In this document: piece by piece, positions 5,482 to 50,815 of the stretch
How the letters are laid out: each line of letters starts with the position of its first letter
Position numbering within the stretch: position 1 is the stretch's first letter
NCBI GenBank assembly: GCA_947627625.1
Contig: CANQWR010000001.1
Location: 124,001-188,000, forward strand
DNA from: an uncultured Ruminococcus sp.
GTDB lineage: Bacteria; Bacillota; Clostridia; Oscillospirales; Ruminococcaceae
Direction of reading: 5' to 3'
DNA: 64,000 bases
Position numbers and translations under genes: made by a program
Notes under the pieces: generated by a model
Database searches by the model: none
The model's input: the letters and a program-made list of their open reading frames with translations, nothing else
Told to the model about the DNA's origin: nothing

Positions 5482-5546
5482 TTTAATCTCTCCTGTCTTA
5501 TATTAAATTTATATATATTTATATTAAATTTTATATTAAATAAAAC

Positions 5547-6707
5547 TCACACAGCTTGTAGTATTTCTATAGCTTTATTCAACTGTGCGTCAATATCGCT
5601 GTCGGAGTTGTCAACAACGTAGTCGGGAGTTATACCAACTCCGTCATAGCAATCGGAGACAGCCGTCTTGTACTCCGCAACGGTCAGCACAACCGCACTG
5701 CCGTCGTCAAATTCGGAAGTCACCTGCATAACGCCTTTTCCGTAAGTCTGCACTCCCACTATATCAGCCTTTCCCGCATCACGGAGTGCAGCGGTAAACA
5801 GTTCCCCCGCACTTGCCGTATTTTCGTTGACTATCACCACCATAGGCAATTCGATTTCGGACTCATCGGAGTAGACTATCGTCTCGGAGTGACCGTCTTT
5901 ATATTCGGCAGTCGCAACAACTCCCTCAGGCAGAAGAGGGTCAAGACAGTCCTCAAGAGCCGTTACAAGCCCCCCGCCGTTGTCACGCAGGTCAAATATC
6001 AGAGACTTTGCACCGTTTGAAGTAAGTCTCTCCAGAACATCTATAAACTGCTGTGTGGTGTTCTCCTTGAAACTGCTTATTTTTATATAACCCGTGTAAT
6101 TGCTGAGCATTTCGCCCGTCACGGAAACGACTTCTATCTCCTCACGGATAAAGGAGTAATCCCTGTCTATACCGTTTCTCCGAACGGTCAGAGAAATTTC
6201 AGAGCCGACATTTCCACGCATGAAGTCCATAGCCTCTTCAAACGTCATATCTTTTACGTCAACACCGTCAGCGGATATTATAATGTCGCCCTCCTGAATG
6301 CCCGAATCGCTTGCGGGGGAGTTCTCCATAACGCCTGTAACTGCTATATAACCGCTGTCGTCATGTTCGAGAGTAAGCCCCATTCCGACCACTCTTCCCG
6401 AACTGTCCTCTTTTTCGGTGTTGTACTCGTCCTCAGTCAGATAGCGTGAATACTTGTCATCGAGACCTGAGACATAACCTTTCAGAATGCCGTCCGTGAG
6501 TTCTGTCTCGTTTATATCTCCGTAGTAATTTTCTCTGACATATGTGTCAAGGAGCTGTAGCGAATCGTATTTCTTTCCCTTTTCGTTCACGTCGAGGACT
6601 TTTCTGTTGAAACTCTGTAGCGAGAAAAACGAAGTCAGTATAAACGTCACAGCGATAGATATGGCGACAAGACTGACAGCCAGACCGAGACTTATTTTTT
6701 TATTCAT
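5547..6707 (-). CDS. S41 family C-terminal processing peptidase with PDZ domain
   Basis: N-terminal TM, PDZ (GIQEGDIIISADGVDV), catalytic region VIVNENTASAGELFTAALRD, GVQTYGKGVMQ. Confidence 0.95.
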   Translation of the reverse strand: MNKKISLGLAVSLVAISIAVTFILTSFFSLQSFNRKVLDVNEKGKKYDSLQLLDTYVRENYYGDINETELTDGILKGYVSGLDDKYSRYLTEDEYNTEKEDSSGRVVGMGLTLEHDDSGYIAVTGVMENSPASDSGIQEGDIIISADGVDVKDMTFEEAMDFMRGNVGSEISLTVRRNGIDRDYSFIREEIEVVSVTGEMLSNYTGYIKISSFKENTTQQFIDVLERLTSNGAKSLIFDLRDNGGGLVTALEDCLDPLLPEGVVATAEYKDGHSETIVYSDESEIELPMVVIVNENTASAGELFTAALRDAGKADIVGVQTYGKGVMQVTSEFDDGSAVVLTVAEYKTAVSDCYDGVGITPDYVVDNSDSDIDAQLNKAIEILQAV

Positions 6708-35224: not shown

Positions 35225-35279
35225 TTTCAACGTTCTGAACATCATGGTACTATATATTTCTGTTCAAAGGTGACTCCAA

Positions 35280-36686
35280 ATGAATGATTCAAAAAATAGA
35301 GAACAAAGTATCTTATTCCGGACAAAGGGAATGCTTTCAACGCTGGTGCTCTTTGTGTGTATAGCTGTGATTTCGATACTTCTCACGATAAGAATAGACT
35401 ATCTGACGAAAGAACAGTGTTACGAGTTTCTGACGTTTTCAACGGAGGAGGCTTGCGGAAATATAGAAAACAATTTTACAAGTGACCGCATTTCACTTAG
35501 AGTTCTGTCACGAATAATCGCTCAGCACGACGACCTGACTTCCGGAGAAGTGAATAAGATCCTGACGGCTTATGACGTAAGCAGTCTCATATCGAATGTC
35601 GCAATACTGACAGCCGACAACACTGTCGTGCAGATAAGGGGCGGAAATATTGAAAACAACACGGTTATGGACTTTGAAGAGGAGAAAAGTCTCGGAGAAC
35701 ACATAAGCGGTCTGCAAACACCTCTCTCGTCGTCGTCTTCAAATAATACGCTGATGAGGAGTTTTGTGCCGATAAAAAAACTCGGCAAGATAGTGGGAAT
35801 GCTATTTCTTGAGATGAACTCCGAAGCGATTGCAAATTCCTGGTCTCCCGAAATATACGACAATTCCGCATCGTTCTGCATAATAGACAGGGCAACAGGC
35901 GACTTTCTTGTAAACAGCTGGGACGAAAATATGAAGAACGTTTCGGACTTAGGTTCGGACAGTCTCTCTGAAGATCTGCTCGGCGGTAAGACGGGATTTG
36001 TCCAGATGGATGTCACGGGAGAATTTGTGTCGTATATGCCTATGGAGATAGAGAGCTGGGAGATAATAGTCGCAGTAGGAGAGGAGGACGTTTTTTCGTC
36101 CGCAAACGAGATGAGAAAATCGATGGCTATGTTCCTGACGGCAGGGGCAATTCTGCTGTTTGCGTATCTTCTCTGGATAATGTACAGCAACAGGCGTTCG
36201 ATAGCAAACACCGAAAAACAGGCTAATATAGACGTTCTGACGGGCTTGCAGAACCGCAACCGCTATGAGATATACTGCAAAAAACTGGAGGGCAGAAACA
36301 AGGGTGTTGCGTGCATATATATAGACGCAAACGGTCTGCACGAGATAAACAACACTATGGGACACCTTGCAGGAGACCAGATGCTCAGATTTATTGCGGA
36401 CTCCCTGAAATCCGTTTTTGGAGAGGACACCGTCTACAGAATAGGCGGTGACGAATTTGTGGTATTCCAGAAGAAAAAGACACAGACGGAACTGGAGAGC
36501 CTTCTTGAAAAGGTACACTCCGAAGTTGAAAAAAATGACTATCATGTGTCATCGGGACTGTGTGTCTGTGAATCGGATATGTCCGTGAACGACATGATAA
36601 AGACTGCCGAAAAGAGGATGTACGAGGCAAAGAGACGTTACTATGAGAGCATAGGCAGACAGGTCAGAAACAATGTCGAGGAGTAG
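35280..36686 (+). CDS. Membrane-bound diguanylate cyclase with extracytoplasmic sensor domain
   Basis: Two TM helices flanking a Cache-like region; GGDEF domain YIDANGLHEINNTMGHLAGD...YRIGGDEFVVF. Confidence 0.92.
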   Translation: MNDSKNREQSILFRTKGMLSTLVLFVCIAVISILLTIRIDYLTKEQCYEFLTFSTEEACGNIENNFTSDRISLRVLSRIIAQHDDLTSGEVNKILTAYDVSSLISNVAILTADNTVVQIRGGNIENNTVMDFEEEKSLGEHISGLQTPLSSSSSNNTLMRSFVPIKKLGKIVGMLFLEMNSEAIANSWSPEIYDNSASFCIIDRATGDFLVNSWDENMKNVSDLGSDSLSEDLLGGKTGFVQMDVTGEFVSYMPMEIESWEIIVAVGEEDVFSSANEMRKSMAMFLTAGAILLFAYLLWIMYSNRRSIANTEKQANIDVLTGLQNRNRYEIYCKKLEGRNKGVACIYIDANGLHEINNTMGHLAGDQMLRFIADSLKSVFGEDTVYRIGGDEFVVFQKKKTQTELESLLEKVHSEVEKNDYHVSSGLCVCESDMSVNDMIKTAEKRMYEAKRRYYESIGRQVRNNVEE

Positions 36687-47034: not shown

Positions 47035-47796
47035 TCAAGACCTGTATTTTTTCCTGACTTCACAAATTTTTCCGCAGGTTCTGTTTCCCTCGGGACAAGT
47101 GCCGTCCGAAACGCAGGAGGGTCCCGCATATCTGAAAATATCGGGGGCGGTCTCCATGCAGAGTTTGAGCATCTCGTCGGCGACAGCGTGAATCTCCCAC
47201 TGTGCCCTGTTACAGCATCTCAGCCTGAAAAAATTAAACAGTGAGCGGACGTTCATTGTGACTATTATTTTGGTCTCACAGGCATTCGGGAGCAGAAAAC
47301 GAGCGTCTTCAATGGCGAGTTTGCGTGCCTTTGAGTTTGCAGTTTTTTCGTCCGCACCCTCCGACAGCAGTCTCTCCCTGTGTTTTTCGGTGAGAATATC
47401 GGCAATTTCGGAGTAGCCGTCCGCAATATTTGCGATAATTTTATCGTACTTTTCCCTTGCGTCGGGAGTGCCCAGAATTTCGGGCGGTGTTATATACTCA
47501 AAACTGTCCCTCTCGTCCACATAACGCTGACTTTTTTGTGAATAGGAGGCAATTCTGTGGCGGACAAGCTGGTGGGAACAGGCTCTTGATATGCCCTCAA
47601 TGCCGAAAGTAAAGCTGACGTGTTCGAGAACGCTCTCATGACCGACGGAGATAAGCATATTTATAAAATCCCTGATTTTTTCGGGCGTGAGGGAATCACG
47701 TATATCGGATATATCGCTGTCGGAGTAGCAGAGTTTTGCGGAAGAAGCTATGAGCTTTTCGGGTTCGGGCGTGTGTGAAATCAGAATGACTTTCAT
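47035..47796 (-). CDS. thyX: Flavin-dependent thymidylate synthase
   Basis: HESVLEHVSFTFGIEGISRACSHQLVRHRIASYSQKSQRYV, NVRSLFNFFRLRCCNRAQWEI. Confidence 0.95.
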   Translation of the reverse strand: MKVILISHTPEPEKLIASSAKLCYSDSDISDIRDSLTPEKIRDFINMLISVGHESVLEHVSFTFGIEGISRACSHQLVRHRIASYSQKSQRYVDERDSFEYITPPEILGTPDAREKYDKIIANIADGYSEIADILTEKHRERLLSEGADEKTANSKARKLAIEDARFLLPNACETKIIVTMNVRSLFNFFRLRCCNRAQWEIHAVADEMLKLCMETAPDIFRYAGPSCVSDGTCPEGNRTCGKICEVRKKYRS

Positions 47797-47983
47797 AATG
47801 TCTCCTCCAAAAAAATTCTATAGTACAATCATACACTTTTATTTTAACATTTTTCGGCGGATAAGTCAAGGAAAAAAACAGATATTTATTTCTGAAAAAA
47901 ATTCTCTCTTCCTATGGACAAACCGAAAAAAAAGTAGTATAATAATATGGTATCTGAAATTTTTACAAAATCGGAGGAATATT

Positions 47984-49234
47984 ATGATGAAAATGAAAAA
48001 GTTAAAAAAGATTTCCGCACTTCTCACGTCCTTTACTCTTGCGTCCACGATGTTCGGCTGTACGCCCACAATAGGAAGCGGTACGCAGGAAGCTATGAAT
48101 GCGGAGAATTACAGTGTCAGAGCGGGAATTTTCATTTACTACACATTGCAGGCTTATAATGACGCTGTTTCCGTACTTCAGGAGCAGGGAGTGGAGTCGC
48201 CCACTCTTGACGACGTGAAAAAAGCCCGTATAGACGAGGTGGACTCCTCGGACTGGATACAGAACAAGGCTACGGAGTACTGTCAGCAGTACCTCTCCAT
48301 ACTCAAAGAGGCTGACAATGTGGGCATAGTCCTCACTGATGAGGAGCTTGAAGAGGCTGAGTCGATGGGAAATTACTACTACAGCATGAACACTCTCTAT
48401 GACGAAAACGGCATAGGTGAGCAGACCATGAAAGAGATAGCGGAAAGTACCTACAAAGAGGAGGACATTTTCAAGTATTACTACGGCTTTGACGGTGAAA
48501 GGGGCTGTACGGAGGAGGAACTCAAAGACTACTTTGACGAGAACTTTGCGAGAGTAAAGTATTTCACAATTGATCTGACAAATGACGAGGGCGAACTTGT
48601 GGACGAAGACCAGCAGAGGGAACTCCGCAAGAAAGCCGAGGACTACGCAAAGCAGATAAACAAGAAGTCCAATGAGATGGACAAGATGTGGGAAGTCGAC
48701 AAAGTGAGTGAAGACTATGACGAGTATAAAGAATCCCTTGTGACGACGACTGCCGCAGAGGGTGAGGAGTCCGAGACAACAACTACCACCACTGTCGAGA
48801 CAGAGGAGGAGACCGAGACCACTACAACAGACCCCTATGCAAACGAAAATCTCATACAGAAACAGACTACCACAGTAGCGAGTGATGAGAGTGAAGAGAC
48901 ACAGACTACAACGACAGAGGACGATGCCGCGAGAGCAAGCCGTGAGTTCAACGAGTATGTGTTCAATGAACTCCCGCTTGACGAGGCACAGGTTTACGAC
49001 TATGACGAGGACACTATATATGTAATAGTCAGGGGAGACCTCAGAGAGCGTATGACAGAGGACGACTATTGGTCACAGGACTACATCGACCAGCTCTTGC
49101 AGTTGCGTTATTATGACGAATTTTCGGACTATATGCAGGGACTTGCCGACCAGATAGTGATAGACAAAAACAATGCGTCTTACAGGAGATATGCACCGTT
49201 CAAGCTGAAACTTGAATCAGAGGAGTCTCAATAA
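47984..49234 (+). CDS. Lipoprotein, PrsA/SurA-like foldase with Thr/Glu low-complexity insert
   Basis: Signal/lipobox STMFGC; SurA-like helical region; insert ESETTTTTTVETEEETETTTTDPY. ATG after GGAGGA; track start runs into thyX. Confidence 0.7.
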   Translation: MMKMKKLKKISALLTSFTLASTMFGCTPTIGSGTQEAMNAENYSVRAGIFIYYTLQAYNDAVSVLQEQGVESPTLDDVKKARIDEVDSSDWIQNKATEYCQQYLSILKEADNVGIVLTDEELEEAESMGNYYYSMNTLYDENGIGEQTMKEIAESTYKEEDIFKYYYGFDGERGCTEEELKDYFDENFARVKYFTIDLTNDEGELVDEDQQRELRKKAEDYAKQINKKSNEMDKMWEVDKVSEDYDEYKESLVTTTAAEGEESETTTTTTVETEEETETTTTDPYANENLIQKQTTTVASDESEETQTTTTEDDAARASREFNEYVFNELPLDEAQVYDYDEDTIYVIVRGDLRERMTEDDYWSQDYIDQLLQLRYYDEFSDYMQGLADQIVIDKNNASYRRYAPFKLKLESEESQ

Positions 49235-49349: not shown

Positions 49350-49542
49350 ATAAACATCCGCCTTGCCGTCATATAGACTATAAAACCCGCACGAAGCAGG
49401 TGGGTATCTGCCCATGTGTTTCACGCTCCCTTCGTCCGAAAAACGGGAGGTCTGCAATCTGCACACGGAGCAACATTCCCTAATAAAATGTGTTGGATTA
49501 TAAAAACTATAATTACCCGAACAAGGCAGATATTTATTTTGT
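49350..49542 (-). ncRNA. ssrS: Probable 6S RNA
   Basis: Minus strand: TTGATT-17-TATAAT promoter; perfect 10-bp closing helix ATCTGCCTTG / CAAGGCGGAT; internal AACACATTTTATTAGGGAATGTTGCTCC...GGGAGCGTGAAACACATGGGCAGATACCCACCTGC...GCGGG, resembling Firmicutes 6S; terminator downstream. Confidence 0.68.
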
Positions 49543-50188: not shown

Positions 50189-50217
50189 TTGACTTTTCAT
50201 GAAAGTTGTGGTATCAT
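50189..50217 (+). promoter_or_regulatory. Promoter of the ~590-nt transcript
   Basis: TTGACT - 17 nt - TATCAT. Confidence 0.78.
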
Positions 50218-50223
50218 AATATC

Positions 50224-50815
50224 AAGATAAAGAGCAGGTGATAGCTCGATAGCTGAATTTACTTGGTTTGTGGTTTTATCCTCAATGTAAATTATTTCAG
50301 GCGGAAAGGTGAGTGAGTCCGATGGAAGAAACTATTGAACAGCAGCGTGAAGCCGACGGGCTTGCTGATTAGCTGAATTTTGTAAAGAGGGAATTTAGGT
50401 TCTTTGTGACTTGTTCCGATGAATGAAGATGCAGATGTTTGGATTCGGTTATGATGCGGACGTATTGCTGGTTTTGAAACGGTTTCATGTCTAAGCTCCA
50501 TTTGGATACAGGATTATCTGAAATTTCGACGTGAGTCTTTAGATATATGTAAAATATTCTGTAAAGGTATGATTCCGGTGAAAAGTGTACTTTCCCAGAG
50601 GTGACTGCGGTTGTCCACTGTGGTCGTCTGAAAACTAAGCCAACTGATTATATTTCTGAAAGGTGATTCCAATGAGAATGCGTGGTTTCTGTCCTGTCTG
50701 ACGGGCTTTTGAAGTTCAAAGTACAGGGCGGTGCGAGTGATTCGGCTTGTGGTTAGTGTTGCTCTAAAATTGAATATCGTGTTAATCCCGAATGTGTGTA
50801 CATTCGGGATTTTTC
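50224..50815 (+). ncRNA. Candidate large structured non-coding RNA (~590 nt)
   Basis: Consensus promoter, 12-bp perfect terminator hairpin, no ORF above a few dozen codons on the + strand, complementary ends (AGAGCA near 50232 with TGCTCT near 50760), many local hairpins and repeated short motifs. Confidence 0.6.
50784..50815 (+). terminator. Terminator of the ~590-nt transcript
   Basis: AATCCCGAATGT-gtgt-ACATTCGGGATT followed by TTTCTGT. Confidence 0.88.

Follow-up and report, generated by a model that had tools for sequence, protein, structure and literature searches.

The question raised by this locus is what kind of gene, if any, occupies positions 50189-50815 of the 64,000-nt stretch of Ruminococcus DNA analysed here (hereafter the window), an interval lying between two minus-strand genes, DUF1292 and the convergent rarA; all features below lie on the plus strand unless stated otherwise. 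A preliminary description had set its bounds at a TTGACT-17-TATCAT promoter and a 12-bp terminator stem, with no long plus-strand ORF inside. We located the promoter at 50189-50217 and the intrinsic terminator, also present in homologs, at 50784-50815 (12-bp stem at 50784-50811, followed by a T run), and our ORF listing agrees with the third point. With its start placed from the promoter and its end from the terminator, the whole RNA would span 50222-50815, or ~594 nt. Within the window alone such signals are in only slight excess (6 promoter-like sites vs. 3.5 in shuffled sequence, and 4 terminator-like sites vs. 2.0). They recur across homologs, however, and are therefore not attributable to chance: a promoter of the same kind (consensus TTGACw-N17-TAATAT, preceded by TGTGG) lies 5' of all 99 homologous copies with enough upstream sequence, and a terminator lies 3' of 93 of the 97 testable copies, delimiting RNAs with a median length of ~650 nt (range ~560-700 nt). 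Judged by these signals, 50189-50815 reads as a real, self-contained transcription unit consisting of promoter, ~594-nt RNA and strong terminator.

The genes that follow this unit bear on whether it could act in cis. The convergent rarA is the 3' neighbour in many genomes, including the window's, while other species have a trypsin-like protease, asnS, SHMT or a secreted protein in that place; this variation indicates that the RNA is not a leader for one gene, and together with the terminator it rules out the leader of a fixed gene. Attenuators typically consist of short leader ORFs followed by a terminator, and the RNA does combine short ORFs with a terminator and has a co-directional next gene in about a third of genomes, so that its micro-ORFs might be leader peptides governing readthrough into whatever lies downstream; lacking any constant partner, such a 5' leader or attenuator appears very improbable. 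Several other features were observed around the RNA, among them a 6S RNA gene (74 bits, 49351-49535, minus strand) just beyond DUF1292, which shares the RNA's neighbourhood in 7 of the 10 homologous loci scanned, and a 494-aa ORF with Thr/Glu-rich stretches and no Pfam match (47750-49234) between thyX and the 6S gene. In the species where asnS lies downstream of the RNA, a T-box leader is found upstream of asnS (L115:2772-3017, minus strand).

Comparison with catalogued RNAs returned no match at gathering score for the window interval in Rfam, and chance matches only at E<=10, while ten homologous loci yielded just the neighbouring 6S RNA, tRNAs and the T-box of asnS. The preliminary description had named ROOL, OLE and GOLLD (RF03087, RF01071 and RF02032, respectively) as candidate classes; none of the three scored above its gathering threshold in the window or in the ten loci, nor at E<=10 in the window, and they are excluded as families to which the RNA belongs. 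The same description had set aside RNase P RNA, tmRNA and SRP RNA, and divergent versions of these can likewise be dismissed: canonical RNase P and SRP RNAs were located elsewhere in 9 of 9 and 9 of 9 genomes tested, and the RNA gave no match to the tmRNA model, with a genuine tmRNA above cut-off elsewhere in 7 of 9 genomes tested. As a side observation, no full tmRNA match above cut-off was found in the window's own genome (G000, 87% complete) or in G087, which is listed as 100% complete. Across Rfam 15 and open-access papers we found no described class joining the features reported here, although an unnamed motif within a large list is possible. From these searches the RNA would be a previously uncatalogued class, fitting no Rfam family.

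Distribution was assessed with a covariance model of the 5' domain, which detected one copy of the RNA per genome in 100 of 126 Ruminococcus species and in 66 of the 69 Ruminococcus genomes of good quality (>=90% complete, <=5% contaminated). BLAST likewise found the sequence in most genomes of the genus and in none of 16 other genera sampled, and alignment shows the promoter, a 5' domain of ~330 nt, the repeated elements and the terminator to be common to the homologs. Among 298 genomes of the order, the 5'-domain model gave two weak, unconvincing matches only (E 0.001-0.01), and a broader covariance model built from 101 sequences gave no match outside Ruminococcus in either 249 genomes of the family (126 genera) or 392 genomes of the class (223 genera); the stricter filters applied in such large searches may have let very divergent copies escape. 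No copies were found in the phages and viral contigs searched. The RNA thus appears to be chromosomal, near universal in Ruminococcus and specific to it. One short contig (L081, G134:C117) carries two equal-score matches, at 1658-1862 and 5500-5704, representing either a tandem duplication or an assembly artefact.

The fold of the 5' domain is supported by extensive covariation. In the model, 32 of 45 base pairs have changed on both sides vs. 16.6 in shuffles, and over 100 distinct sequences the fraction of pairing cells is 94.8% vs. 86.8% shuffled (somewhat inflated by the fitting of the alignment to the covariance model), with 358 vs. 76 double-sided changes and a covariation score of 0.319 vs. 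0.171. No shuffle control reached the observed pairing and covariation values, and sliding one strand by a single base lowers pairing to about 50%. Earlier RNAalifold runs on plain MAFFT alignments had already given 18 pairs with compensatory change. The covariation check suggested in the preliminary description thus came out above both shuffled and slid controls, and its picture of a large, structured, independently transcribed RNA of ornate size is borne out by this covariation and by the genus-wide conservation, which together argue strongly for a structured RNA class. Note that the thermodynamic fold of the window copy on its own is unremarkable (z = -1.8).

Individual helices can be placed on the window copy. 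Hairpin P2 (50255-50293; GAAUUUAC-UUGGUUU-GUGG...CCUC-AAU-GUAAAUU) comprises helices 1 and 2 around a conserved internal loop and shows double-sided changes in 9 of its 12 pairs (100 sequences); a candidate pairing of this loop (UUGGAC) with AGUCCAA of the repeated elements was rejected, as it does not covary and species with UUGGUC or UUGGUU keep AGUCC. Covariation further supports helices 4 and 5, formed by GCTGATTAGCTGAATTT (50364-50380) and GGATTCGGTTATGATGC (50441-50457), in which 3 of 3 and 10 of 10 pairs covary, respectively. Helices 7 and 8 form an inner hairpin at 50387-50417 (GAGGGAATTTAGGT...ACTTGTTCC), where all 10 pairs show double-sided changes. A hairpin at 50515-50545 (TATCTGAAATTTCGAC...GTCTTTAGATA) is kept in nearly all homologs, with a longer inner GAC/GUC stem in L015. 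Two more helices with compensatory pairs lie outside the model, namely a 3' GAAA-loop hairpin and a long-range helix (GAAGCCG/CGGCUUC in homologs) that in the window joins GAAGCCG (50349-50355) to CGGTTTC (50480-50486). The latter is complementary at all 7 positions in 64 of 66 homologs—a figure favoured by the search pattern used for its 3' strand—and includes the compensatory pairs GAAGCCA/UGGCUUC and GAAGUCG/CGACUUC. It is mutually exclusive with a local hairpin noticed earlier and indeed present (AAGCCgacgGGCTT, 50350-50363), and this competition suggests that the RNA may switch; in helix 3 of the model, the same GGGCUU is paired with GAGUCC of element R1. Other structural suggestions of the preliminary description fared less well: its pairing of the RNA ends (AGAGCA/TGCTCT) is not kept in relatives, where the 3' string belongs to a separate local GAAA-loop hairpin, and its repeat GATAGCTGAATTT/GATTAGCTGAATTT does exist as sequence but is not a functional repeat, because the copies of GATAGCTGAATTT sit in different helices of the covariation model.

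Another repeated motif proved more informative. GAAAGGTGA, previously noted at 50304 and 50658, is present at both places, and both copies are parts of a ribosome-binding element whose consensus, taken from an information profile across homologs, is AAAGGUGAnUCCrAUG. AGGUGA within this element is a strong Shine-Dalgarno site five bases from the AUG, and throughout the genus the reading frame opened by this AUG closes after 2-4 codons, typically as AUG-AGA-N-stop. Among 123 distinct internal elements, 101 end after 2-4 codons (two in 19, three in 71, four in 11), and the stops of all 123 comprise TAA (66), TGA (35) and TAG (22); the +2 frame, by comparison, shows a broad spread of stops with no clustering. 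For the first internal element, R2, a stop falls at codon 3 or 4 in 78 of 89 orthologous copies, compared with at most 68 in 2000 trials in which letters were redealt within columns and with 8.5% of control ATGs from the flanks or the 5' domain; after collapse to 40 lineages of <80% identity the count is 35 of 40, with all three stops in use. Because UAA, UAG and UGA interchange in register, above the column-shuffle control and after lineage collapse, we regard the stop as being kept as a codon.

Most RNAs carry just one or two internal elements, with one to five overall, and six RNAs have no recognisable intact one. Tandem arrangements occur, such as that of R. flavefaciens FD-1, where five units repeat with a 70-nt period and hairpins in the linkers, four of them reading AUG AGA UAA, and those of L119 and L120, with four units each at ~52 nt. 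The final element, R5, has neither an AUG nor an immediate stop, a coincidence that favours the minigene reading. R5's retention of the motif, alongside the large covarying 5' domain, would suit a purely structural RNA in which nucleotide conservation produces the AUG and stop patterns incidentally, yet the appearance of three different stop codons in the right register, after the controls above, leaves that reading with very little probability. By its sequence the RNA instead qualifies as a carrier of translational minigenes, with a Shine-Dalgarno site and with start and near stop selected as codons. The earlier label of "apparently non-coding" is accordingly only half true, given that selection acts on the starts and stops of several micro-ORFs. 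Conservation of a protein-coding kind, which the preliminary description had named as evidence against its proposal, is found in part, for ORFs of 2-16 codons, and coexists with strong covariation.

The element itself could conceivably be the functional part. CsrB titrates CsrA, and by analogy the AAAGGUGAnUCCrAUG repeats might pose as a ribosome-binding site and so titrate away a repressor of translation or a small RNA, as befits repeats that are near-identical, variable in copy number, tandem in FD-1 and conserved at spacer bases beyond the needs of a Shine-Dalgarno site. The RNA resembles CsrB/RsmZ decoys in being free-standing with repeated Shine-Dalgarno-like motifs, but its motif includes start and stop codons, and CsrA is encoded in 0 of 12 genomes tested, which rules out a CsrA decoy specifically. 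Searching 18 genomes for the element placed 9 of 12 matches in the RNA itself, and one in the window's genome; given this near confinement, we see no sign of an mRNA regulon sharing the site. A stop moving in register with the start would moreover be needless in a decoy, unless it served to limit translation, and we consider the decoy reading improbable. The conserved nUCC between Shine-Dalgarno and AUG is dispensable for initiation and could mark another ligand. We infer that UCC fits the UGGAUCACCUCC tail of a genus 16S gene with one bulged base. In Staphylococcus aureus, cryo-EM has revealed extended Shine-Dalgarno pairing near the start codon (PMC13009471). We also observed that a 468-aa gene in the window has a ribosome-binding site, AAAGGTGACTCCAAATG (35266-35282), much like the RNA's element.

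The codons between start and stop speak to what is, or is not, made. Codon 2 is usually AGA, with GAG, GGA, AAG and CAG also occurring, and this variation implies that no fixed peptide is selected. The bar minigenes of phage lambda deplete their tRNA through peptidyl-tRNA drop-off, and the RNA might do likewise with tRNA-Arg and thereby serve dormancy or phage defence; AUG-AGA-UAA behind a strong Shine-Dalgarno site does resemble toxic minigenes (PMC8012679, PMC8708949). AGA is, however, the commonest Arg codon (39% of those in the long ORFs of the window), which rules out a rare-AGA codon trap, and codon 2 need not be AGA at all. The promoter looks vegetative and is conserved; single-copy and near universal across Ruminococcus, the RNA does not resemble a defence island, and no copies turned up in phages or viral contigs; a toxic role therefore seems highly unlikely.

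Two longer micro-ORFs show coding-like conservation. Element R1, a Shine-Dalgarno-like GGAAAGGTGAGTGAGTCC followed by a start codon (50303-50325), opens ORF1, which in the window has 16 codons (50322-50372, MEETIEQQREADGLAD and stop). Its peptide is conserved at ~16 aa (ME..QQREAGGLAE, ending EAGGLAE), a length of 16 codons is kept by 66 of the 94 homologs whose start can be recognised, and its synonymous fraction is 0.42 in frame vs. 0.16 and 0.32 in the other frames. ORF4 encodes a conserved peptide of ~10 aa (MKxxRYxxKx) in 8-12 codons (70 genomes, 51 distinct sequences), with a stop exactly 5 nt 5' of R5 in 52 of 70 and synonymous fractions of 33% in frame vs. 21% and 17%. These synonymous counts are supportive rather than decisive, being pairwise and uncorrected for phylogeny, and the two peptides may add a function at the peptide level.

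The ribosome-engaging reading developed below competes chiefly with a peptide function of ORF4. That function forms part of a wider alternative—a dual-function small RNA whose product is a micropeptide (ORF4, ORF1) or antisense pairing by the structured domain, with minigenes that only stabilise the transcript by holding ribosomes on it—which we judge unlikely but serious. In its favour, even distant species retain M-K, R-Y and an end that is basic or acidic in ORF4, whose length stays in frame and whose Arg codons vary (AGG/AGA/CGU), both ORFs have the in-frame synonymous excess just given, and published minigene work favours mRNA protection (PMC8708949). Against this, some clades, the window's among them, lack ORF4 or have it fused but retain the 5' domain, peptide residues vary widely, and several divergent species have lost or shifted the frame of ORF1. 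ORF1 overlaps a hairpin, so that part of the micro-ORF signal coincides with RNA structure, a point that counts against the minigene reading. Dual-function small RNAs are similarly regulatory-type structured RNAs with short ORFs, but they usually have one longer ORF, in contrast to the several ORFs of 2-16 codons seen here, most of them too short for functional peptides.

Starting from the transcription signals, covarying structure and selection on start and stop codons displayed by the homologs, we tentatively favour, with confidence somewhat short of even, a free-standing, strongly promoted and structured RNA with micro-ORFs whose minigenes dock ribosomes to regulatory effect. The covarying 5' domain would present ORF1; 3' of it would follow one to five minigenes, each with a strong Shine-Dalgarno site, an AUG, one to three further sense codons and a stop; next would come an ORF of ~10 codons for a basic peptide, and last the start-less Shine-Dalgarno-like site by the GAAA-loop hairpin. 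Ribosomes would initiate at each minigene and terminate almost at once, the strong site would let them re-initiate or linger so that the RNA is repeatedly occupied, and the immediate stop would allow engagement without elongation through the fold. The outcome would be regulatory, with free initiating ribosomes being titrated or read out, and ribosome cover might also protect the RNA; titration, sensing and RNA protection are thus the purposes we infer. In published experiments on other systems, a strong-SD two-codon minigene could restart ribosomes that had not dissociated, and could shield the mRNA carrying it (PMC8708949).

With stops after only 2-4 codons, the RNA looks built to catch and release ribosomes rather than to make protein. 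The near privacy of the element argues against a decoy that mimics mRNA, the lack of CsrA against an analogue of CsrB, and the commonness of AGA against a trap based on rare codons. The most economical reading would be that the RNA engages ribosomes time and again but does not let them elongate, the result being regulation of, or by, translation. On the other side, titration by one or two sites would need very high RNA abundance, and the six RNAs without an intact internal element, the decayed copy in the window and the conserved nUCC, with its possible other ligand, all count against the minigene reading. The more specific proposal that this is a new ribosome-engaging RNA class, whose minigenes capture and cycle ribosomes as a translation sensor or brake without encoded protein, is rather unlikely.

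Comparison with known systems helps to situate this ribosome-engaging proposal. The RNA is like ROOL, OLE and GOLLD in size class, elaborate conserved structure and single locus, and like ROOL in its ruminal and gut host range; it differs in lacking any sequence or structure match to them in Rfam and in having micro-ORFs under selection. ROOL and GOLLD have been reported from phages and prophages, in the vicinity of tRNA islands (PMC12286853), whereas the Ruminococcus RNA is chromosomal, with 6S, DUF1292 and rarA as neighbours, and near universal in its genus. Like tmRNA, whose model it does not match, it is structured and would engage ribosomes through short ORFs. In the minigenes of axe-txe mg2, EHEC LEE1 and phage lambda bar, ribosomes initiate and terminate at once (PMC8708949, PMC8012679), and these have the same sequence of strong Shine-Dalgarno site, AUG, one or few codons and stop; they are single and belong to protein-gene leaders or phage transcripts, whereas the Ruminococcus minigenes form a conserved, sometimes tandem series on an independent structured RNA with no downstream gene.

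Ruminococcus, including the fibre degrader R. flavefaciens, thus appears to keep a large RNA absent from RNA databases that unites ornate structure with start-stop minigenes, features that are usually investigated separately. The natural minigenes known from leaders and phages are isolated cases; the conservation of minigenes across some 100 species in an independent RNA makes their purpose testable by comparative and genetic means. More generally, classing an RNA as "non-coding" because its ORFs are short can overlook translation that need not serve to make a peptide.

The copy in the window itself is a partly decayed member of the class. Its element R2 (AAAGGTATGATTCCGGTG) and the attached ORF (50563-50604) have decayed to a GTG start and 8 codons (VKSVLSQR and stop). 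Element R3 (GAAAGGTGATTCCAATGAGA, 50658-50677) has kept a ribosome-binding site and start codon, and its AAGGTGANTCCNATG occurs nowhere else in the 2.04-Mb genome. It leads into a micro-ORF at 50672-50701 (MRMRGFCPV and stop) that is probably the R3 minigene fused with ORF4, the correspondence to ORF4 being our reading of the locus. The GAAA hairpin is degenerate in the window's species, as is element R5 (50727-50746, placed by alignment with near relatives), which in relatives reads AAAGGGUGAGUCCAmAGGGUAAUUUAGC, without a start codon, and is intact in about 70 homologs.
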